This document shows positions 33,657-45,307 of a stretch of 64,000 nucleotides of DNA, one piece after another. Source of the DNA: Aliiroseovarius sp. Its GTDB lineage: Bacteria; Pseudomonadota; Alphaproteobacteria; Rhodobacterales; Rhodobacteraceae. Under the pieces are notes generated by a model. The model ran no database searches, was not told the origin of the DNA, and saw nothing but the letters and a program-made list of their open reading frames with translations. Position 1 is the first letter of the stretch, and each line of letters starts with the position of its first letter. A program made the position numbers and the translations under genes. The stretch covers positions 1-64,000 of the forward strand of contig NZ_JASBTN010000001.1 in NCBI RefSeq assembly GCF_030148435.1. The letters are read 5' to 3'.

Positions 33657-35333
33657 ATGTCACTTGGAATCACCCAAAAGAAAACCCGCGGCATACTTGG
33701 CCTCGGTTTTGCGATGCTGCTGGGCGGCGTGGCCATCCCGGCTTTCGCCGAAGAGCCGTCACTGAGCGAGGATGCCTTTGACGCGTCCAAGCAGCTGTAC
33801 TTTGAACGCTGCGCCGGCTGCCACGGCGTCCTGCGCGTGGGCGCAACCGGCAAGAACCTTTTGCCCGAATGGGAAAAGACTGCCGCAGATGGCACCGTGA
33901 CCACCGGTGGCACGCTGAAACTGGGCCAGGAACGCCTTGAAAAGATCATTTCCTGGGGCACCGAAGGCGGTATGAACAACTTCTCGGACATCATGACCGA
34001 GCAGGAAATCAAGGATATGGCGACCTACATCCAGATGGAGCCGCCCAAACCGCCTGAGATGTCACTGGCGCAGATGAAAGAGACCCGCAAGGTCTATGTC
34101 GAGCCCGAGGATTACCCGACCGAGCCGCTGCATGGCCGCAACTGGGAAAACTTCTTCGTCGTCATCGAACGTGATGTGGGCAAGGTGGCCGTCATCGACG
34201 GAGACACCAAGGAAGTTCTGGCGCACATTCCCACGGGCTATGCCGTGCACGTGATCAAGGCGTCGGAAAAGAGTGAAATCGCTGATCCGAAGGATCCCGG
34301 CCGCTTCTGGTACACGATGGGCCGTGACGGCAAGATGACCAAGATCGACCTCTGGCAGACACCGGACAAGATGTTGGTCTCGGAAGTCAAGATCGCCTAC
34401 GACGCGCGTGACGTGGCCGTGTCCGGCGACGGCAAATACGTGATCGGCGGGGGCTATTGGCCGCCGCATTTCGCGATCGTCGACGCCGAGACCATGGAGC
34501 CGCTCAAGGTCGTTTCGACCCGTGGCGTGAACATTGACGGCGAATATGTTGAAGAGGCCCGCGTTGCGGCCATCTACAACACGCCGAACGAGCCGACTTG
34601 GCTGGTCTCGGTGAAGGAGCTGGGCCAGATGTGGCAGGTCGATTACTCGAACCTCGACAGCCTGCGCATCGACAAGATCGACACCTCCAAGTTCCTTCAT
34701 GACGGGTTCTTCGATCCAACCGGCCGCTACTTCCAGATCGCCGCGAACGCGTCGAACCAGATGGTCGTGGTTGATGCAAAAGAGCGCAATCTTGAAGCCA
34801 TTATCGATACGGCTCCGCTGCCGCACCCCGGCCCGGGCGCCAACTGGGTTGACCCGAACTGTGGTCCGGTGGCTGCGACCCCCCACCTCGGCGAAGGTAC
34901 TGTGACGGTCTGGGGCAATGATCCCGAAAGCAACCCGGACAATGCCTGGAAGACCTGTTACGAAGTTGAAACCGATGGCGCGGGCCTGTTCATCCGGACC
35001 CACCCGAATTCGGATTACGTCTGGGTTGACCAGACCAAGCATCCGGAGCCGGACGTGCAGCAGTCGGTTCAGGTCATCTCTAAAGAGACCGGTGAGATCG
35101 TGAAAACCATCCGGGTCACAGAAGAGGAAGGCAACGTCGCCGTTCACTTCGAATTCAACAAGGATGGCACCGAAGTCTGGGTCTCGAAGTGGAACCGTGC
35201 GACCTCGAAAGAGCCCAATGGCGAGATCGTGATCTACGACGCCAAGACTCTCGAAGAGGTCGGCCGCGTGAAGGGTCTCTATGCCCCGACCGGCAAGTTC
35301 AACGTCTACAACCGGTCGAACCACGTCACCTGA
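33657..35333 (+). CDS. nirS: Cytochrome cd1 nitrite reductase
   Basis: A 558-residue periplasmic enzyme reducing nitrite to NO, the defining step of denitrification. A signal peptide ends IPAFA. The cytochrome c domain has RCAGCHG (Cys52, Cys55, His56). The rest is the eight-bladed d1 propeller: ENFFVVIERDVGKVAVIDG begins it, while KFLHDGFFD and VAATPHLGEG carry the two active-site His residues. ATG 33657 follows CGGAGAGTGATC. It stands alone between a divergent promoter region and a strong terminator. The d1 haem is supplied by the nirE-N operon. Confidence 0.98.
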   Translation: MSLGITQKKTRGILGLGFAMLLGGVAIPAFAEEPSLSEDAFDASKQLYFERCAGCHGVLRVGATGKNLLPEWEKTAADGTVTTGGTLKLGQERLEKIISWGTEGGMNNFSDIMTEQEIKDMATYIQMEPPKPPEMSLAQMKETRKVYVEPEDYPTEPLHGRNWENFFVVIERDVGKVAVIDGDTKEVLAHIPTGYAVHVIKASEKSEIADPKDPGRFWYTMGRDGKMTKIDLWQTPDKMLVSEVKIAYDARDVAVSGDGKYVIGGGYWPPHFAIVDAETMEPLKVVSTRGVNIDGEYVEEARVAAIYNTPNEPTWLVSVKELGQMWQVDYSNLDSLRIDKIDTSKFLHDGFFDPTGRYFQIAANASNQMVVVDAKERNLEAIIDTAPLPHPGPGANWVDPNCGPVAATPHLGEGTVTVWGNDPESNPDNAWKTCYEVETDGAGLFIRTHPNSDYVWVDQTKHPEPDVQQSVQVISKETGEIVKTIRVTEEEGNVAVHFEFNKDGTEVWVSKWNRATSKEPNGEIVIYDAKTLEEVGRVKGLYAPTGKFNVYNRSNHVT

Positions 35334-35466: not shown

Positions 35467-37266
35467 ATGACCCAGGACAGCGGTCAAGAACCGAAGAAAC
35501 CGATCTGGCGGCGCACCCTCATCTGGGGCATGCCCATCGCCGCAGTTGCGGGCATTTTTGTCGCCGGCATCATCTTCTGGGGTGGTTTCAACACCGCCAT
35601 GGAAGCGACCAACACCAAGGATTTCTGCATCTCGTGCCACGAGATGGGGGATTTCGTTTATGAAGAATACAAGGGCACGATCCACGATGTGAACCGGTCC
35701 GGCGTGGGCGCGGTCTGTTCCGACTGCCACGTGCCGAAGGACTGGACCCACAAGATCATCCGCAAGATCAAGGCCTCCAGGGAAGTCTGGGGCAAGATCA
35801 CCGGCAAGATCTCGACGCCCGAGAAATTCGACGCCCACCGCCTGCAACTGGCGATGAACGAATGGGAGCGGATGAAACGCACGGACTCGGTCGAATGCCG
35901 CAACTGCCACGACTTCGAATCGATGATGCCGGAATTCCAGGCCCCGCGCGCGCGCCAGCAGCACCTGAACGCGATGGAGACGGGCCAGACCTGTATCGAC
36001 TGCCACAAGGGCATTGCCCACCTCGACCTGCGTGACCGTGCGGACGAGGACTACCTGGCCGCGCTGGAGGCGCCGAACCCGGAATTCATCCGCAAAGTGC
36101 CGGAGGAATACCTGGCAAGCCTCGCGCGCATCGAAACGATCGAGGCCGAAGAGGCAGCCGCTGCCAAGGCCGAGGACGAGGCCGCGCGTCAGCGCATTGC
36201 CGATGCCGTCGCCAATGCACGCGCAGATGAACGCGCCAAGGTCGAAGCCGAGATGGCCGGCACCGCCAGCGCCGTCGATGAAGGTGTCGACGTGGCGCCG
36301 AACATCGACTGGGGCACGGTTGCCTCCAGCGACCTGACCCTGTTCTACCCGGGACAGGCAAGCTTCGAATGGGTGCAGAACGGCAAGACCCACGGTGGCG
36401 CACGTCCGTTGACCCAGGGTGGCGATGCCTGCACGACCTGCCACGCCAAGGAACTGGAAGACATCGGCAACAAGATCGTCGCCGGCGGCGGCGGCAAGAA
36501 CGACGAGCTGGAACCGACCCCGATTCCGGGCAAACGTGGGACGATCGGTGCCACGGTCCAGGCAGCCTATGATGCGGACAATGTCTACTTCCGTCTGCAA
36601 TGGCAGAATGCGATCCATGCCCCCGCGCCCTTTGTGGACGGCGGCAAGATGGACCCGGATAACCAGATCAAGGTCGCGATGATGATCACCGGGACCGGCA
36701 TCGAGATGGGTGATCAGGTGGGGTGCTGGGCGTCCTGCCACGCCGACAACACCTACATGCCCTTCGATCCGGGCGCCGAGGCGATTGCCGCAAACGGCGA
36801 AGTGGCCACCGCGCTGATGGCCGAAGAGACCATCACCAAATACCTGACGGAAAGTCGCACCAAGGTTGAGGTCAAGGGGCGCCGCGGCAAGGCCCAGGGT
36901 GGCTGGGACAAACTGGCCGAGGCCGCTCAGATCGAGCAGTACCTGGCCGACGGCACCTATCTGGACCTGATGCGTGTCTACGCCGATGGCTCCGCCTCGA
37001 ACGGCTACCGGCTGGAACGCCGGGTCGAGAACGACGGTGATATCGCGGCGCAGGCCAAGCTGGGTGACGATGGCATGTGGACCGTGGTCTTCTCGCGGCC
37101 GCTGGTCGGCGGGGTGGGCGACGTGCCGCTTGAATCCGGCAAGACCTATACGGTCGGCTTTGCGATCCACGACGATTACGCCGCCGCACGCTTCCACCAT
37201 GTGACGTTGGACACCACCATGGCGCTCGACGACCCGGAGGCCCAGATCAACGTGGTTGGTCAATAA
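35467..37266 (+). CDS. NapC/NirT-type multihaem cytochrome fused to an EB_dh-like haem domain
   Basis: A 599-residue membrane-anchored cytochrome. One helix (about 20-42) is followed by a NapC/NirT tetrahaem domain with CISCH (54-58), CSDCH (84-88), CRNCH (144-148) and CIDCH (176-180). A charged Ala/Glu-rich linker (about 225-265) leads to a C-terminal 320-residue part with CTTCH (322-326), an atypical CWASCH (420-425, CX3CH), and the beta-sandwich pattern of ethylbenzene-dehydrogenase-type haem proteins. It probably takes electrons from quinol and passes them to periplasmic partners such as NirS. Its nirT-like position after nirS supports this; the extra domain is unusual. Confidence 0.88.
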   Translation: MTQDSGQEPKKPIWRRTLIWGMPIAAVAGIFVAGIIFWGGFNTAMEATNTKDFCISCHEMGDFVYEEYKGTIHDVNRSGVGAVCSDCHVPKDWTHKIIRKIKASREVWGKITGKISTPEKFDAHRLQLAMNEWERMKRTDSVECRNCHDFESMMPEFQAPRARQQHLNAMETGQTCIDCHKGIAHLDLRDRADEDYLAALEAPNPEFIRKVPEEYLASLARIETIEAEEAAAAKAEDEAARQRIADAVANARADERAKVEAEMAGTASAVDEGVDVAPNIDWGTVASSDLTLFYPGQASFEWVQNGKTHGGARPLTQGGDACTTCHAKELEDIGNKIVAGGGGKNDELEPTPIPGKRGTIGATVQAAYDADNVYFRLQWQNAIHAPAPFVDGGKMDPDNQIKVAMMITGTGIEMGDQVGCWASCHADNTYMPFDPGAEAIAANGEVATALMAEETITKYLTESRTKVEVKGRRGKAQGGWDKLAEAAQIEQYLADGTYLDLMRVYADGSASNGYRLERRVENDGDIAAQAKLGDDGMWTVVFSRPLVGGVGDVPLESGKTYTVGFAIHDDYAAARFHHVTLDTTMALDDPEAQINVVGQ

Positions 37267-37343: not shown

Positions 37344-37772
37344 ATGCGAATCCCCCTTTCCCCCTTCGCATTCGCCGCCGCGCTGGCAAGCGCGGCTTTG
37401 CCCGTTCTGGCGGGCGACAAGACCGAGGCCGAGATTGCCGAGATCTGCGGCGAAGCCGAAGAACGCTATGTCGATATCTACGGCGCCCCGTCGGCCGAGG
37501 CCGAAGGCGTGACTGTTGTCACCATGTACAAGTACAGCTTCTGCCCGCCCGAGATCGCCGTGCCCGTCGGCACCACCGTGCGCTGGGTCAATGTCGACAG
37601 GCGCACCAGCCATTCGGTGATCGCGAAGGGCCAGCCGGAAAGCGACCGGGTTTTCCCCGAGGAGGCGATCGAGTTTACCTTCCTGGAGGCCAGTGACCCG
37701 CAGGAATATCTCTGTGGGCCGCACTGGGAAAGCCACGAGATGATCGGCATGGTCACAGTTGTCGAGGAATAA
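37344..37772 (+). CDS. Periplasmic cupredoxin (blue copper protein)
   Basis: A 142-residue protein with a signal peptide ending LPVLA. The plastocyanin-like fold contains SFCPPEIAVPVGTTVRW, a first copper His in TSHSVI (His90), and a C-terminal loop LCGPHWESHEM with Cys124, His127 and a Met at 133 or 136 as the probable ligands. Two further Cys (35 and 67) could form a disulfide. Between the multihaem cytochrome and the nirE operon, it is a likely soluble electron carrier to NirS or NorCB. A terminator separates it from the cytochrome gene, so it may have its own promoter. Confidence 0.88.
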   Translation: MRIPLSPFAFAAALASAALPVLAGDKTEAEIAEICGEAEERYVDIYGAPSAEAEGVTVVTMYKYSFCPPEIAVPVGTTVRWVNVDRRTSHSVIAKGQPESDRVFPEEAIEFTFLEASDPQEYLCGPHWESHEMIGMVTVVEE

Positions 37773-38312
37773 GGGCCCCCGGGCTCCCGCGGCCGTATTG
37801 TACCTTTGCGCCTAAGCGCCCTTCCCGGAAATTCTCCGGCAAACCCCACTCACCTGGCCCGCCACTGCAGGGCGCAGGAGAATGCCGTGTCGACCGGGCT
37901 CCAGCACGCGGCTTCGCGTGTCGCGCACCCTTCCCGGGCGAAACCCCTGGACGTTTACGCTGACAGTCCGCGCAGGGCCGTATTCAATCGCATGTGTGGC
38001 TTCGTCGCGCTGGAACGATGGCCACGGGACCGTGAGGACCGGTCCTTCAAAGAGCTGAAATCGCGCCTTTTAGGGTAGGTCGCCTGATGCAGGGTGACAG
38101 AGAAAATTGTTTGAATACAAGGGGGTTGAGCCAAAGCATGGCCCCCTTAACTTATGTCAAGGAATAGCAGCCCCCCCTGCGGCATTTTACCTTTGAAACC
38201 GGACCGAGCCTCACCCGCCGGCAATGTCATCGATTCGACACGCGCTGAAAGGGCGCGCCTGTCCGCGGGAGGGGTTTGCATCCAGCCAACCCTTGGGAAG
38301 AGCGAGACACAC
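37773..38312. promoter_or_regulatory. Regulatory interval upstream of nirE
   Basis: 540 bases without a convincing gene. An open frame at 37806-38078 has no recognisable product. GGGGGTTGAGCCAAAGCATG GCCCCC-type sequence at 38121-38147 can fold into an interrupted hairpin. Next to it is TTAACTTATGTCAA, a one-mismatch box, 153 bases before the nirE ATG. The leader between box and gene is long and G-rich in its last third, so nirE may have a substantial untranslated region. Confidence 0.55.
38147..38160 (+). promoter_or_regulatory. FNR/DNR-type box upstream of nirE
   Basis: TTAACTTATGTCAA matches TTGAC-N4-GTCAA with one mismatch (A for G). It is the only such site before the nirE operon and would place the transcription start near 38195. 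Confidence 0.6.
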
Positions 38313-39074
38313 ATGACCGGCAAAGTTCACCTCATCGGCGCAGGCCCTGGAGATCCCGAACTGCTGACCTTGAAGGCTGCCCGTTTGATCGCCGAGGCGA
38401 CCTGTGTGGTCTATGACCGCCTGGTCTCGGACGAAATCATCGCCATGGCGAACCCCGAGGCGAAGATGATCTTTGTCGGCAAGATGCCGCAATGCCACCC
38501 CGTGACCCAGGACCGCATCAACGAGATCCTGGTCGAGGAGGCGCAGGCGGGCCAGGTGGTTGCCCGGCTGAAAGGGGGCGATCCGCTGATTTTCGGCCGC
38601 GGCTCGGAGGAGGCCGCTTACCTGGCGGAGCATGATGTCGAGGCCGAATATGTGCCCGGCATTACCGCCGCCCAGGGGGCCGCCACCGTGTCCGGCGTGC
38701 CGCTGACTCACCGGGGGCTGGCCACCGGTGTGCTATATGTCACCGGCCACCGCCAGGCCGACAAGGTGCTGGACCTCGACTGGAAACGACTGGCCGACCC
38801 GATGACCACGCTGGTGGTCTACATGGGGGTTTCGTCGATCGGCCAGATCGCCATGGGCCTGATGACCGAAGGCCTGCCGGGCTCTACCCCGGTGATGGCG
38901 ATCTCGAAGGCCACGAATGCGGATGAACGCCGCATGGTTTCGACCCTGTCCAACATTGCCGCGGATACCCGCGATGCCGGGCTGAAACCGCCCACCCTGT
39001 TCATCATCGGCCAGGTCGTGTCGCTCTATGGCCGCCAGGCCGTGCCCTCGCGGGAGGTTGCTGCAAATGCCTGA
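38313..39074 (+). CDS. nirE: Uroporphyrinogen-III C-methyltransferase NirE
   Basis: A 253-residue SAM-dependent methyltransferase making precorrin-2, the first committed step of haem d1 synthesis. VHLIGAGPGDPELLTLKAAR is the SUMT signature, and VYDRLVSDEI, RLKGGDPLIFGRG and PGITAAQGAA are the substrate and SAM loops. ATG 38313 is chosen because MTGKVHLIGAGPGDP is the family start; the frame is open upstream. The next gene starts 8 bases before its stop. It opens the operon nirE-C-F-DL-G-H-J-N-cbiX. Confidence 0.95.
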   Translation: MTGKVHLIGAGPGDPELLTLKAARLIAEATCVVYDRLVSDEIIAMANPEAKMIFVGKMPQCHPVTQDRINEILVEEAQAGQVVARLKGGDPLIFGRGSEEAAYLAEHDVEAEYVPGITAAQGAATVSGVPLTHRGLATGVLYVTGHRQADKVLDLDWKRLADPMTTLVVYMGVSSIGQIAMGLMTEGLPGSTPVMAISKATNADERRMVSTLSNIAADTRDAGLKPPTLFIIGQVVSLYGRQAVPSREVAANA

Positions 39075-39387
39075 ACTGGTTGCCCTCTCCCTTCTGGCGA
39101 CCACACTGGCCATGGCTGCCCCTCCGGCCATGGCCGACAGCCTCGATCCTGATGCGCTCAAGCGACTGGTGCATCAGGATTGCGGCTCCTGCCACGGGTT
39201 GACGCTGAAAGGCGGTCTGGGGCCGGATATCCGCCCCCAAACGCTGGAGGGCTACGACCCGGAAATTCTGCAATTCATCATCCTCGAAGGCATGCCGGGC
39301 ACCGCCATGCCGCCGTGGTAGCCGCTGATCAGCGAGGCGGAAGCCGCCTGGATCGCCGATTACCTCCTGAAGGGAGACACCGAATGA
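39067..39387 (+). pseudogene. nirC: NirC c-type cytochrome interrupted by an in-frame TAG
   Basis: The frame from ATG 39067 encodes a small periplasmic cytochrome c: a signal peptide (LSLLATTLAMAAPPAMA), the haem site CGSCHG, and the late Met-ligand region MPGTAMPPW. There TAG (39319-39321) stops translation at 84 residues. The same frame continues open for 21 codons (PLISEAEAAWIADYLLKG...) to TGA 39385-39387, which overlaps the nirF ATG. That tail matches the closing helix of NirC-type cytochromes, so the intact gene had about 106 codons. It could be a true nonsense mutation, a sequencing error, or a tolerated truncation. NirC is thought to pass electrons in d1 assembly or to NirS. Confidence 0.78.
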
Positions 39388-40544
39388 AACGGCTGATTTC
39401 GACCCTTGCTCTGGGCATCGCCCTGGCCACCCCCGCCCTGTCCGACACCCTTGCCACCGGCGACCTGGGCCTGATCATCGAACGCGCCAAGGGGTCGGTC
39501 GTCCTGATCGACCAGTCGGACCGCGCCGCATTGGCCCGGATCGAGGGGCTGGGCGATCTTTCGCATGCCTCGATGGTCTACAGTTCGGACGAGCGCTATG
39601 CCTACGTGTTCGGCCGCGACGGCGGGCTGACCAAGGTCGATATCGTCGAGCGCAAGATCGCCAAGCGCGTCGTGCAGGGTGGCAACTCGATCGGCGGGGC
39701 GATCTCGGACGACGGCACGCTGGTGGCCGTGTCGAACTACGAACCCGGCGGAGTACGCATCTTCGACGCCGAAACGCTGGAGATGGTCGCTGACATCCCG
39801 ACCGCATCCAAAACCATCGGCCTGGTCGATGCCCCGGGCCGTCGCTTCGTCTTTACCATGTGGGACACGGGCGAGACCTGGATCGCCGACATGGACGGGG
39901 TGGAACCGGGCGCCGAGCCCAGGATCACCAAGATCCCCGAGATGGGCGAAAACCCCTATGACGCGTTGATCACTGCCAATGGCCGCACCTATATCACCGG
40001 TCTCTTCGGTGAAGACGGGCTGACCGCCCTGGACCTGTGGGACGAGAGCCCGGAACCCATCCGCGTGCTGCCGGACTACGGCCGCGGGCAGGAGGAAATG
40101 CCGGTCTACAAGATGCCCCATCTGGAAGGTTGGGCCGATACCGGCGCCGAGTTCGTGCTGCCCGCCGTGGGCCACCACGAGGTGCTGTGGATCGACAGCG
40201 ACAGCTTGCAGGAGACCGCGCGCACCAAGACCTACGGCCAGCCGGTTTTCGCCATGGCCCGACCCGATGGGCGCCAGGTCTGGGTGAACTTCGCCCACCC
40301 GCTGAACGACACGATTCAGGTGATCGACACCGTGACCAAGGAAGTCGTGCATGAGTTCAAGCCCGGTCCGGGCGTTCTGCACATGGAGTTTACCCCGCGC
40401 GGGCACGAGATCTGGGTCTCGGTCCGCGACGAGAACAAGGTCAAGATCTACGACACCGAGACATTCGAGCTCCTGTCCGAGATCGACGCCGACAGCCCCT
40501 CGGGCATTTTCTTTACCGCGCGTGCGCACAGAACCGGATTGTAA
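39384..40544 (+). CDS. nirF: Haem d1 biosynthesis protein NirF
   Basis: A 386-residue periplasmic protein with a signal peptide ending TPALS. The rest is a d1-propeller-like fold without the cytochrome c domain: YVFGRDGGLTKVDIVERKI, SNYEPGGVRIFDAETLEMV and VWVNFAHPLNDTIQVIDT are typical. NirF is needed for the late steps of d1 assembly. No lipobox Cys follows the signal peptide, so this form is soluble. ATG 39384 overlaps the original nirC stop, which preserves coupling in the intact operon. Confidence 0.95.
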   Translation: MKRLISTLALGIALATPALSDTLATGDLGLIIERAKGSVVLIDQSDRAALARIEGLGDLSHASMVYSSDERYAYVFGRDGGLTKVDIVERKIAKRVVQGGNSIGGAISDDGTLVAVSNYEPGGVRIFDAETLEMVADIPTASKTIGLVDAPGRRFVFTMWDTGETWIADMDGVEPGAEPRITKIPEMGENPYDALITANGRTYITGLFGEDGLTALDLWDESPEPIRVLPDYGRGQEEMPVYKMPHLEGWADTGAEFVLPAVGHHEVLWIDSDSLQETARTKTYGQPVFAMARPDGRQVWVNFAHPLNDTIQVIDTVTKEVVHEFKPGPGVLHMEFTPRGHEIWVSVRDENKVKIYDTETFELLSEIDADSPSGIFFTARAHRTGL

Positions 40545-40547
40545 GTC

Positions 40548-41543
40548 ATGAGACTGGTTGCCGACCCCGCCGACCGCCGCCTGCTGGACGATTTCCAGCG
40601 AGATTTTCCGGTCACGCCCCATCCCTTCGCCCTCCTCGCCGAAGAGGTGGATCTGAGCGAGGCCGAGGTGGTGCGCCGGCTGAACGCCATGCGTCAGACC
40701 GGCCGGATCACCCGGGTCGGCGGCACCTGCGCGCCCAACACCCTTTCGGCCTCGACCCTGGCCGCCGTGGCCGCCCCGGCGGACCGGATCGAGGGTGTCG
40801 CCGAGATCATCAATGACGAGCCGGGGGTGAATCACTCCTACGAGCGCGAGGATGACTGGAACATCTGGTTCGTCGCCACCGGTCCGGACCGCACCCATGT
40901 GGACGCGACGCTGGCCCGGATCGAGGAACGCACCGGCCTCACCGTGCTGGACCTGCGCCTGGTGCGGCCGTTCAACGTTGATCTGGGTTTCAAGATGGAT
41001 GGCACCACGAACCCGGTGAATCCGCCCGCGCCTCGAGCGGCCGATCTGGACGTGATCCAGCCCGGCGACCGCGACCTGATGCAGGCCCTGTGCCAGGGGG
41101 TGCCGATCGTGCCGCGCCCTTATCAGGCGCTGGCCGAGAGCCTGGGACGCAGCGAAAACGAGGTGCTGGACCGCATCAGCGCGCTTTCCGATGCAGGCAT
41201 CCTGTCGCGGCTGGGCGTGATCGTGCGCCACCGCGCGCTGGGCTGGCGGTCGAATGCGATGGTGGTCTGGGATCTGCCCCATGACGCCATTACCGAAGCC
41301 GGCCCGCAACTGGCCGCGCTTCCCGGCGTGACCCTGTGTTACGAGCGTAGCCCGGTCGAAGGCACCTGGCCCTACCGCCTCTATTCGATGATCCATGCCA
41401 AGTCCCGCGAGGATGCACTGGAGGTGCTGGATCGCGCATCGAACCTGCCCGCGCTGCGGGGGGTAGATCACAAACCGCTCTTCTCCACCCGCTGCTTCCG
41501 CCAGACCGGCGCGATGATTGCCGACCGCAGGGAGCGCGCGTGA
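40548..41543 (+). CDS. nirD: Fused siroheme decarboxylase subunits NirDL
   Basis: A 331-residue protein made of two AsnC/Lrp-like halves joined by a short Pro-rich linker (near residue 155). Each half has an HTH-like part (LAEEVDLSEAEVVRRLNAMR; LAESLGRSENEVLDRISALS) and a ferredoxin-like domain (NHSYEREDDWNIWFVAT; CYERSPVEGTWPYRLYSMIH). In denitrifiers these are not regulators: NirD, L, G and H decarboxylate siroheme to didecarboxysiroheme on the way to haem d1. The D-L fusion is known in other nir clusters. It is coupled to nirG. Confidence 0.94.
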   Translation: MRLVADPADRRLLDDFQRDFPVTPHPFALLAEEVDLSEAEVVRRLNAMRQTGRITRVGGTCAPNTLSASTLAAVAAPADRIEGVAEIINDEPGVNHSYEREDDWNIWFVATGPDRTHVDATLARIEERTGLTVLDLRLVRPFNVDLGFKMDGTTNPVNPPAPRAADLDVIQPGDRDLMQALCQGVPIVPRPYQALAESLGRSENEVLDRISALSDAGILSRLGVIVRHRALGWRSNAMVVWDLPHDAITEAGPQLAALPGVTLCYERSPVEGTWPYRLYSMIHAKSREDALEVLDRASNLPALRGVDHKPLFSTRCFRQTGAMIADRRERA

Positions 41544-42016
41544 TGGTGGCCCGTGACCGGACGCCCGCGGTTCTGGACGAGACCGACCGCCTGCTGGTGA
41601 ACGCGCTGCAGGATGACCTGTCGCTCGATCACCGCCCCTTTGCCACCTTGGCCGAAAAGCTGGGGCTGAGCGAGGATGAGGTGCTGACCCGCACCAAAGC
41701 CCTGCGCGAAGAGGGTGTCCTGACCCGGTTCGGCCCGTTCTTCGACGCGGCCGCCATGGGCGGGGCCTTCTGTCTTTGTGCCATGGCCGTGCCTGCCGAC
41801 CGTTTTGATACGGTCATGACTCGGGTCAATGCACACCCGGAAGTCGCGCATAATTATGAACGGACGCACCGGCTGAACATGTGGTTCGTTCTGGCGACGG
41901 AAACGCCCGGAGGGATCAAGGACGCAGCCGACAGGATCGAAGGGGAAACCGGCATCAAGGTGCATTGTTTCCCCAAACTGCAAGAGTTCTACATCGGGTT
42001 TCGGGTGGCCGCATGA
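41543..42016 (+). CDS. nirG: Siroheme decarboxylase subunit NirG
   Basis: A 157-residue AsnC/Lrp-like protein. LAEKLGLSEDEVLTRTKALR is the HTH-like segment and HNYERTHRLNMWFVLAT the siroheme-site signature. The stop/start overlap with nirDL is TGATG; I prefer ATG 41543 to the GTG one codon earlier because GGGAGCGCGCGTG gives good spacing. Together with NirDL and NirH it forms the decarboxylase set. Confidence 0.92.
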   Translation: MVARDRTPAVLDETDRLLVNALQDDLSLDHRPFATLAEKLGLSEDEVLTRTKALREEGVLTRFGPFFDAAAMGGAFCLCAMAVPADRFDTVMTRVNAHPEVAHNYERTHRLNMWFVLATETPGGIKDAADRIEGETGIKVHCFPKLQEFYIGFRVAA

Positions 42017-42504
42017 GCTATGTTCTCGACACGACGGATCGCGCGATAATCACCGCGCTGCAATCGGGCCTTCCGCTGGTGCCGGCCCCCTATGCCGAGG
42101 TGGCCGCGGGGCTGGAGCTTGCCGAGGACGAGCTTTGCACCCGCCTGCAAGCGATGAAGGACACCGGCGTCATCCGCCGTATCGCCGCAGCTCCCAACCA
42201 CTACAAGCTGGGCATGGTCGCCAATGGCATGACCGTCTGGGACGTGGATGACGCGCAGCTGTCCGAGCTTGGCCCGCTGGTCGGTGCGCTCGATTTCGTC
42301 AGCCATTGCTACGAACGGCCGCGCGATCTGCCGGACTGGCCCTATAACCTTTTTGCGATGGTCCACGGATCCTCGAAGGGCGAGGTGGAAGAGAAACGCG
42401 CCCGCATCACCGACCTCTTGGGCGATGCGCTCAATGGCAGCGACATCCTTTATTCCACCCGCATCCTGAAAAAGACGGGGCTGAGGCTCCGCAAGAAAGG
42501 ATAA
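42013..42504 (+). CDS. nirH: Siroheme decarboxylase subunit NirH
   Basis: A 163-residue AsnC/Lrp-like protein starting inside the nirG stop codon (ATGA). VAAGLELAEDELCTRLQAMK is the HTH-like part and HCYERPRDLPDWPYNLFAMV the ferredoxin-like signature with the conserved His/Tyr. It completes the NirDLGH set of haem d1 biosynthesis. Confidence 0.92.
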   Translation: MSYVLDTTDRAIITALQSGLPLVPAPYAEVAAGLELAEDELCTRLQAMKDTGVIRRIAAAPNHYKLGMVANGMTVWDVDDAQLSELGPLVGALDFVSHCYERPRDLPDWPYNLFAMVHGSSKGEVEEKRARITDLLGDALNGSDILYSTRILKKTGLRLRKKG

Positions 42505-42507
42505 ACC

Positions 42508-43725
42508 ATGTTTCGCCTGACCGAATACATGCACCAGCTGGTCGCGCCGACCCCGGTACGCCAACGCCGTGGCTCCGGCCTGCCGAAACCGGTGGTGATC
42601 TGGAACCTGACCCGCCGCTGCAACCTGAAATGCCGCCACTGTTATACGGTTTCGGCGGATGTGGATTTTCCCGGCGAGCTGACCCATGACCAGGCCATGG
42701 CCACGCTGGAGGATCTGGGGCAGTTCAAAGTACCCGCGATCATCCTGTCGGGCGGCGAGCCGCTGGACCGGTTCGATGTGTTCGAGATCGCCCATCGTGC
42801 CCGCGAACTGACGCGCGTTCTGGCCTTTTCCACCAATGGAACAAAGATTTACGGCGAAACCGCCGACAAGATTGCCGAGGTCGGGTTTGACTATGTCGGC
42901 ATCTCGATCGACGGGATTGGCAAGACCAACGACTGGTTTCGCGGCGTGGACGGTGCCTTTGACGATGCCGTGCGCGGCGTGCGCGAATTGAAGAAACGCG
43001 GCGTGAAGGTGGGCCTGCGTTTCTGCCTGACCGAGGGCACGCAGCACCACCTTGAGGATCTGTTGCAGCTCTGTGATGACGAGGGCGTGGACAAGTTCTA
43101 CCTGTCGCATCTGGTCTATGCCGGGCGGGGCGACAAGAACCGGGGCGAGGATGCCCACCACCTGATGACCCGCAAGGGTATGGACATCCTGATCGAACGC
43201 GCCTGGCTGGCCGCGGCCGAGGACATGCCGCTGGACATCGTGACCGGCAACAATGACGCCGACGCGGGCTATTTCCTGAAATGGGCCGCCAAGAATTTCG
43301 ACGCCGACAAGGTCGCCAACCTGCGCGAACATCTGGCTGCCTGGGGCGGCAATTCTTCTGGCATGGGAGTCGCGAACATTGACTTTCTGGGCAACGTACA
43401 CCCGGATACCTACTGGTCCGACTACACGATCGGTAGCGTGAAGAAGACACCGTTTTCCGAGCTCTGGACCGGCTCCGACCAGATGCTGGCCACCCTGCGC
43501 ACGCGGCCCCGCCCGTTGGAAGGGCGCTGCGGCGACTGTTCCCTGCAGGACGTCTGCGGCGGCAACACCCGCATTCGCGCGCTGCAGCTGACCGGCAACC
43601 CCTGGGCCGAGGATCCGGCCTGCTACCTGACGAATGACGAAATCGGTGTGACCGACACGGCCGAACGGCTGGAAGTCACCCCCTTCCGAGGCAAGAAACA
43701 TGACCCGAAACACCAGTTTTTCTAA
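42508..43725 (+). CDS. nirJ: Haem d1 biosynthesis radical SAM protein NirJ
   Basis: A 405-residue radical SAM enzyme that removes the propionate side chains and installs the oxo groups on the way to haem d1. CNLKCRHC gives Cys38, Cys42 and Cys45 for the [4Fe-4S]-SAM cluster; [17 protein letters not shown] is the GGEP SAM motif. A C-terminal SPASM-like region has [12 protein letters not shown] for auxiliary clusters. The start follows nirH by 3 bases. The nirN start lies 26 bases before its stop. Confidence 0.97.
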
Positions 43726-45307
43726 AGAGCCCCGGCAGATTGCCCGGACTCCCACCCGCGCGAGAGCCGGTGTGTGGTTTTCACTGATCGTTGCCATGGT
43801 GCTGGGCGGACCCGCGTTGGCCGACCCGGTCGCCGATTACAACGAGTTCTGCGCCGATTGCCACGCCGCGAACCGCCTTGGTGGCACCGGCCCGGCGCTG
43901 ATCCCTGAGACCCTGCGCCGGATGCGCGGTCCCAAGATCGAGGCCGTCATTCGCGACGGCCGCGTGGCCACCCAGATGCCGGGCTTTACCGAAGAGCTGA
44001 CGGACGCGCAGATCACCGCCCTGTCGGACTACCTGAAGACCCCGCTGGACACCATCCCGCCCTGGGGCGCGGAACAGATCAACGCCTCGCGCGTGATGGA
44101 CGAGGATTATGTCGCCGCCGACTCCCCTGTCTGGGACGCGGACCCGATGAACATCACTCTGGTGGTGGAAACCGGCGATCACCATGTCTCGGTCCTGAAC
44201 GGCGACACTTTCGAGGTGCTTGACCGGTTTGCCACCCCCTTCGCAGTGCATGGCGGGCCGAAATTCAGCCCGGATGGGCGCTATGTTTTCATCATGTCGC
44301 GGGACGGTTGGGTTCAAAAATACGACATTTACAGCCTGAAACAGGTGGGTCGTACTCGTGCAGGCTTGAACTCTCGCAACATTGCCATGTCTGGTGACGG
44401 AAAATGGCTTGCCGTGGCGAACTACCTGCCCAACACGCTGACCATCCTGTCCACCGAAGACCTGACGGTGGCCGAAGTGCATAAGATCGAGGGCAAGGAT
44501 GGCACACCCAGCCGCGTCTCCGCTGTCTATCAGGCACCGCCGCGCGACAGTTTCGTGCTGGCCCTGAAGGACGTTCCGGAGGTCTGGGAAGTGTCCTATT
44601 CCGAGAACCCCGACATGAGCCTCTTTGCCGGCGGGTTCACCCATGACTGGCGGATCGAAGGTCCGACCGAACAGGATACGGATTTCCCGATCCGCCGCAT
44701 CACCACGCCGGACTATCTGGACGATTTCTTTTTCGACCAGAGCTACGAGCACCTGATGGGCGCTTCGCGCAAGGGCGAGGACGGCATGGTCATCGACCTA
44801 GTGATCGGCATGAAAGTGGCCGATCTGGACCTGCCGGGCATGCCGCACCTGGGATCGGGGATCACCTGGGCCTATGGCGACACCACGGTGATGGCGACTC
44901 CGCACCTGAAGGAAGGCGTGATCTCGGTCATCGATATGAACAGCTGGGAGACGATCAAGCGCATCCCGACCGAAGGTCCCGGTTTCTTCATGCGCAGCCA
45001 CGAGAACTCCAAATACGTCTGGGCGGATGTGTTCTTTGGCCCGAACAAGGACGCGATGCATGTGATTGACAAGCAGACCCTGGAGATCGTCAAGACCCTG
45101 CGCCCGGTGCCGGGTGCCACGGTCGCCCACGTGGAATTCACCCGCGACGGCAAATACGCCCTGGTGTCGGTTTGGGAGGACGATGGCGCGGTATTGATCT
45201 ATGATGCCGAGACTTTGGAGGAGGTGCGCCGCCTTCCCATGCGCAAACCGTCGGGGAAATACAATGTCTGGAACAAGATCACCTTCTCGGAAGGGACCAG
45301 TCACTGA
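43700..45307 (+). CDS. nirN: Dihydro-haem d1 dehydrogenase NirN
   Basis: A 535-residue NirS-like periplasmic protein with an N-terminal signal anchor ([17 protein letters not shown]), a cytochrome c domain with CADCH (51-55), and a d1-binding propeller. [11 protein letters not shown] and MATPHLKEG carry the His residues that correspond to the NirS active site. NirN catalyses the last dehydrogenation of the d1 precursor and hands the cofactor to NirS. It starts within the end of nirJ. Confidence 0.94.

Follow-up and report, generated by a model that had tools for sequence, protein, structure and literature searches.

What is to be made of an amber stop inside nirC, the one small cytochrome gene of a haem d1 operon, when the remainder of the operon appears undamaged? 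An earlier note on a 64,000-nucleotide stretch of DNA from Aliiroseovarius sp. (hereafter the window) placed such a stop at 39319-39321 and offered three options: that the strain has lost the last helix of NirC, that the stop is an error, or that it is read through. Here we show that the codons beyond the stop still spell out the C-terminal segment found in relatives, and that the first option is favoured in the form of a recent loss, an error being possible and readthrough being without support. We consider it probable that a recent nonsense mutation has removed the C-terminal segment of NirC, which would make this an ordinary lesion and not a new mechanism.

The keto groups of haem d1 are attributed to the joint action of NirC and NirF, a function shown in vitro in 2026 (PMC13168839). 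In that paper, Hebecker and Layer report that NirF binds the dilactone of the NirJ product, that NirF alone formed a likely intermediate in vitro, and that both NirF and NirC were required for efficient formation of dihydro-haem d1. Reports on whether NirC can be bypassed conflict: older work cited in the introduction of PMC13168839 describes Pseudomonas aeruginosa as having no need of NirC for haem d1, whereas older work cited in the introduction of PMC7137109 describes mutants of Paracoccus denitrificans and P. fluorescens, impaired in nirC expression, as lacking haem d1. The earlier remark that NirC is dispensable where another cytochrome donates electrons is dated in so far as NirC is now held to make the keto groups together with NirF, while the report on P. 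aeruginosa continues to speak for it.

The gene, the type of lesion and the pathway step are all already known. A real stop would make the strain a naturally occurring nirC mutant in which the rest of the operon is intact, affected at a step whose enzymes were not named until 2026, and nitrite reduction by the strain would tell whether NirC can be bypassed. It would also caution against taking nirS in a gene survey as proof of nitrite reduction. Should the stop be a base-call error, it matters for annotation only.

Materials and methods

Comparisons were made with 113 relative loci, comprising 80 loci from a genome collection (the best 80 of 439 encoding a NirF relative), four plasmid records, and 29 loci from a scan of family genomes (30 less the window's own); some genomes occur in both sets. 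The annotated plasmid operon of Aliiroseovarius sp. M344 (L083) served as the reference for operon comparison. A tree of nirF plus nirE was inferred from 84 sequences, and the branch leading to the window measured 0.71 substitutions per third position. Coding signal around stop codons was scanned in 344 kb of the genome (the window plus 14 stretches); the scan addressed stops only.

Results and discussion

The nirC frame and what it lacks

Translation confirmed the in-frame TAG of the nirC frame that opens at 39067. The frame reads 84 residues ending in GTAMPPW, then TAG, PLISEAEAAWIADYLLKGDTE and a TGA (39385-39387), so that the stop does fall just past the Met-ligand region, and the 21 further residues do lead to a TGA sharing bases with the nirF ATG at 39384, both as first described. 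Coordinates of nirC and the surrounding features are summarized in Table 1.

Table 1. Features of the nirS operon in the window, in order of position.
Feature	Position	Strand	Remarks
nirS, cytochrome cd1 nitrite reductase	33657..35333	+	83% identity over 558/558 residues of L083 protein
NapC/NirT-type gene	35467..37266	+	next to nirS; NapC/NirT-type cytochrome domain fused to ethylbenzene-dehydrogenase-like PF09459 domain
Small cupredoxin gene	37344..37772	+	plastocyanin/halocyanin-like; between NapC-type gene and nirE
nirE/cobA, uroporphyrinogen-III methyltransferase	38307..39074	+	TIGR01469, E 1.3e-88; overlaps nirC start
nirC as it stands	39067..39321	+	84 residues, ends at TAG
In-frame amber stop in nirC	39319..39321	+	Arg in 110 of 112 relatives
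21 codons 3' of nirC stop, then normal TGA	39322..39387	+	C-terminal segment in relatives
Predicted hairpin CUCC...GGGAG	39364..39376	+	over possible nirF ribosome-binding site
Possible nirF ribosome-binding site, GGGAG	39372..39376		by eye
nirF	39384..40544	+	PF02239, E 6.8e-100; aligned over all 387 residues of L083 protein
Siroheme decarboxylase genes, presumably nirDLGH-type	40548..42504	+	three AsnC/Lrp-like frames; no internal stop
nirJ, radical SAM enzyme	42508..43725	+	85% identity with L083
nirN	43700..45307	+	own cytochrome c domain; named by position and domains; no internal stop

The 84-residue product matches PF13442 (Cytochrome_CBB3, E 1.4e-08), has an N-terminus resembling a signal peptide by eye, and carries the haem motif CGSCH at residues 39-43 with Met81 as the predicted haem ligand. 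An Asp before CxxCH and a GGLG motif after it are described for NirC (PMC7137109, section 3.2), and both are present in the window's NirC (DCGSCHGLTLKGGLG). NirC (cytochrome c55X) of P. aeruginosa (PDB 6tp9) belongs to the same family as judged by the profile of the relatives (E 2.3e-25, profile positions 19-99), with the haem motif, the GGLG loop, the Met ligand and the PPW end of the haem pocket common to both. With the profile of the relatives aligned to 6tp9, TAMPPW of the window contains the equivalents of Met62, the Met ligand, and of Trp65, which lies three residues further on in the haem pocket (offset checked; numbering from PMC7137109, section 3.2). The stop directly follows the Trp65 equivalent and, unlike 6tp9, the window's NirC has nothing beyond it. 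The C-terminal segment that follows the haem pocket is missing from the protein, while its codons persist downstream of the TAG. The loss proposed in the earlier note holds for this segment; that it is the C-terminal helix of the cytochrome fold is expected, and we infer this identity.

Operon context

As in relatives, nirC lies between nirE and nirF in the nirS operon, and it is the sole operon gene with an internal stop when compared with L083. The genes for NirS, the NapC/NirT-type protein, the cupredoxin, NirE, NirF, the three decarboxylase-type proteins, NirJ, NirN and CbiX were each aligned to their best match in that operon without an internal stop, in agreement with the first reading of the surrounding genes as intact. 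The three decarboxylase-type frames, which we take to be nirDLGH-type, are annotated as AsnC family in L083. The fusion of NapC/NirT-type and PF09459 domains next to nirS has a full-length alignable counterpart in the Aliiroseovarius plasmid operon, and the small cupredoxin is a possible electron carrier. The hairpin predicted over the possible nirF ribosome-binding site is probably not conserved, its sequence differing by eye in five aligned relatives. A search of 37700-40600 for promoters and terminators returned shuffle-level counts (one promoter-like hit against a mean of 0.6, and two terminator-like hits against 1.8).

The stop column among relatives

Comparison with close relatives, one of the checks proposed in the earlier note, places the stop in the window alone. 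A nirC gene was present in 112 of the 113 relative loci, the exception (L005) starting just before nirF. At the column of the stop, these 112 carry Arg (110), Gln (1) or Ser (1), and none has a stop there or a NirC that likewise ends at PPW; when collapsed to 102 distinct nucleotide rows, the column holds 100 Arg, one Gln and one Ser. The nearest named relatives, by NirF and by DNA, include Aliiroseovarius, Shimia, Pelagimonas and Ruegeria. In the family scan, nirC was found in 56 of 394 genomes (E up to 1e-15) and has an internal stop only in the window's genome; the 55 without a stop include one (G119) in which the gene lies in two pieces on two contigs. Since nirF (E up to 1e-60) occurs in exactly the same 56 genomes, NirC and NirF are kept together without exception in this sample and at these cut-offs.

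Conservation of the tail and age of the stop

The match between the 21 codons downstream of the stop and the NirC of relatives is more than would be expected by chance. Relative to L066, the tail shows no amino-acid differences and 10 synonymous codon differences over 21 codons, while 13 of the 58 residues at positions 27-84 differ; in L012, L083, L011, L006 and L009, one of 21 tail residues differs from the window. Of the 88 loci in which 19 or more tail columns were available, two show no difference from the window, five show one, and the rest show 2 to 10. Such near-identity to the closest relatives, despite many synonymous changes, indicates that the tail was translated until recently. The tail is no better conserved than the body of the protein, the mean residue difference from the window over 78 loci being 32% for the tail and 27% for the body.

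With zero change at 48.3 nonsynonymous tail sites on the window's branch, the tail would have been untranslated for at most ~8.7% of that branch (95%), a rough bound of about 9% that assumes a neutral tail and no change on the branch. Tails of the sister group (L035, L021 and L014) differ from the window at 2, 4 and 2 of 19 residues, respectively, and with two tail changes placed on the branch of the window the bound would become ~18%. This leaves three readings: a recent stop, a sequence error, or a tail that is still made.

A disrupting mutation with little further decay, a feature of recent pseudogenes, is present in nirC. As in strain-specific nonsense mutations described as recent pseudogenes, there is a single interior stop, the neighbours are free of stops, and relatives carry intact copies; nothing specific sets the case apart from recent pseudogenes generally, other than that the target is the operon's one small cytochrome gene. 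In nirF, nirE and the nirC body alike, sites that are nearly invariant showed no unusual decay. For the nirC body ahead of the stop, relaxed selection was considered and rejected, there being one departure at 25 nearly invariant sites, a rate equalled or exceeded by 17 of 102 relatives; in the tail, only five sites were usable for this test.

Sequence error or real stop

A sequencing or assembly error, in which case the NirC of this strain would be ordinary and full-length, is unlikely, though it comes next after recent loss. The assembly is a 3.32 Mb draft in 89 contigs (99.46% complete), and a well conserved tail, an operon otherwise without stops and a lesion found in none of the relatives examined are what an error would leave. 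However, at least two base changes separate TAG from the Arg codons found in relatives, so that a single miscalled base would need a lineage that already carried one of the rarer residues at this column (Gln or Ser, each seen once in 112). Nor did a comparable interior stop stand out in the 344 kb scanned, when the top 13 of the ranking were examined. Of the 12,530 stops scanned, 4,561 had 20 open codons on either side, and the nirC TAG ranked second among these for two-sided coding signal. Inspection by eye, without recourse to homology, divided the remaining 12 of these 13 into eight with a Met soon after, resembling gene junctions, and four with weaker downstream signal, resembling plain gene ends. 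Because these look like gene boundaries, the assembly has no evident excess of such stops.

Expected consequences of the truncation

If recent nonsense mutation is accepted as the best explanation, the truncated NirC would retain its CGSCH haem site and Met ligand and lose its last 22 residues. Such a protein would probably be unstable or inactive, since the putative C-terminal helix is gone. Synthesis of haem d1 would then be expected to stall or slow at the keto-group step of NirF and NirC, after the NirF intermediate, leaving NirS short of its cofactor and the strain a poor denitrifier of nitrite. A smaller effect on nirF translation is conceivable, as ribosomes would now leave 62 bases before the nirF start; this is speculative because nirF has a GGGAG of its own.

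In the genome as a whole, the best match to a copper nitrite reductase fell below the cut-off (49.3 against 296.3 bits), and on this basis denitrifying nitrite reduction seems to depend on NirS and haem d1, the copper type being the one alternative sought. NosZ, by comparison with its cut-off, scored above it and is encoded without a stop elsewhere in the genome. A second nirC was not found in the genome: the matches were the cytochrome c domain of NirN (E 1.2e-7), which is the only other clear NirC-like match, and another at E 0.37.

The effect of the mutation may nevertheless be mild, given that P. aeruginosa is reported to do without NirC. It is distinctly unlikely, in our view, that the truncation is real but tolerated, with the work of NirC done either by what remains of the protein or by another periplasmic cytochrome, such as the one forming a domain of NirN. 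Along with the P. aeruginosa report, the formation of the likely intermediate by NirF alone in vitro (PMC13168839) would accord with tolerance, as would the stop-free nirN nearby with its NirC-like domain. Against this, every one of the 56 family genomes with nirF also has nirC, without a stop in 55, which argues against easy dispensability, and the nirC-impaired mutants of Paracoccus denitrificans and P. fluorescens are described as lacking haem d1 (PMC7137109). A stronger form, in which the strain denitrifies with NirS, naturally lacks NirC and yet continues to produce haem d1 by means of another cytochrome (for example the NirN cytochrome c domain) beside NirF, we regard as very unlikely. 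Literature on nirC stops, pseudogenes and mutants, judged by title, yielded no truncated NirC of a nirS operon.

Readthrough of the stop and the tRNA set

Readthrough of the TAG to give a full-length NirC is hardly credible. The preservation of the tail's protein sequence, up to the recent past or to this day, is what it would predict, but the stop occurs in one genome only and is conserved in none of 112 relatives, and RF1 (prfA) is present above its cut-off. ARAGORN placed tRNAs at 40 of 41 places, all with anticodons other than CUA, TAG terminates 35 of the 291 genes predicted in the sample, and RNA structure around the stop is unremarkable (z -1.14, -0.05 and 0.80). None of the four lines checked for recoding (stop conservation, RF1, CUA tRNA and RNA structure) supports it.

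The tRNA set found is incomplete, and an unassembled suppressor tRNA is for that reason conceivable. Genes for tRNA-Tyr, tRNA-Ile and Ala-TGC were not found among the 41 tRNA places in the genome, nor did a pattern search for the tRNA-Tyr anticodon arm return a match; these absences are probably assembly gaps. The 41st place is a damaged copy of tRNA-Gly. In L159 (G000:C50, positions 1-219), a damaged repeat of the 3' part of a tRNA-Gly comes after the tRNA itself at the end of the contig, an arrangement that to the eye resembles the scar left at the attachment site of an integrated element.
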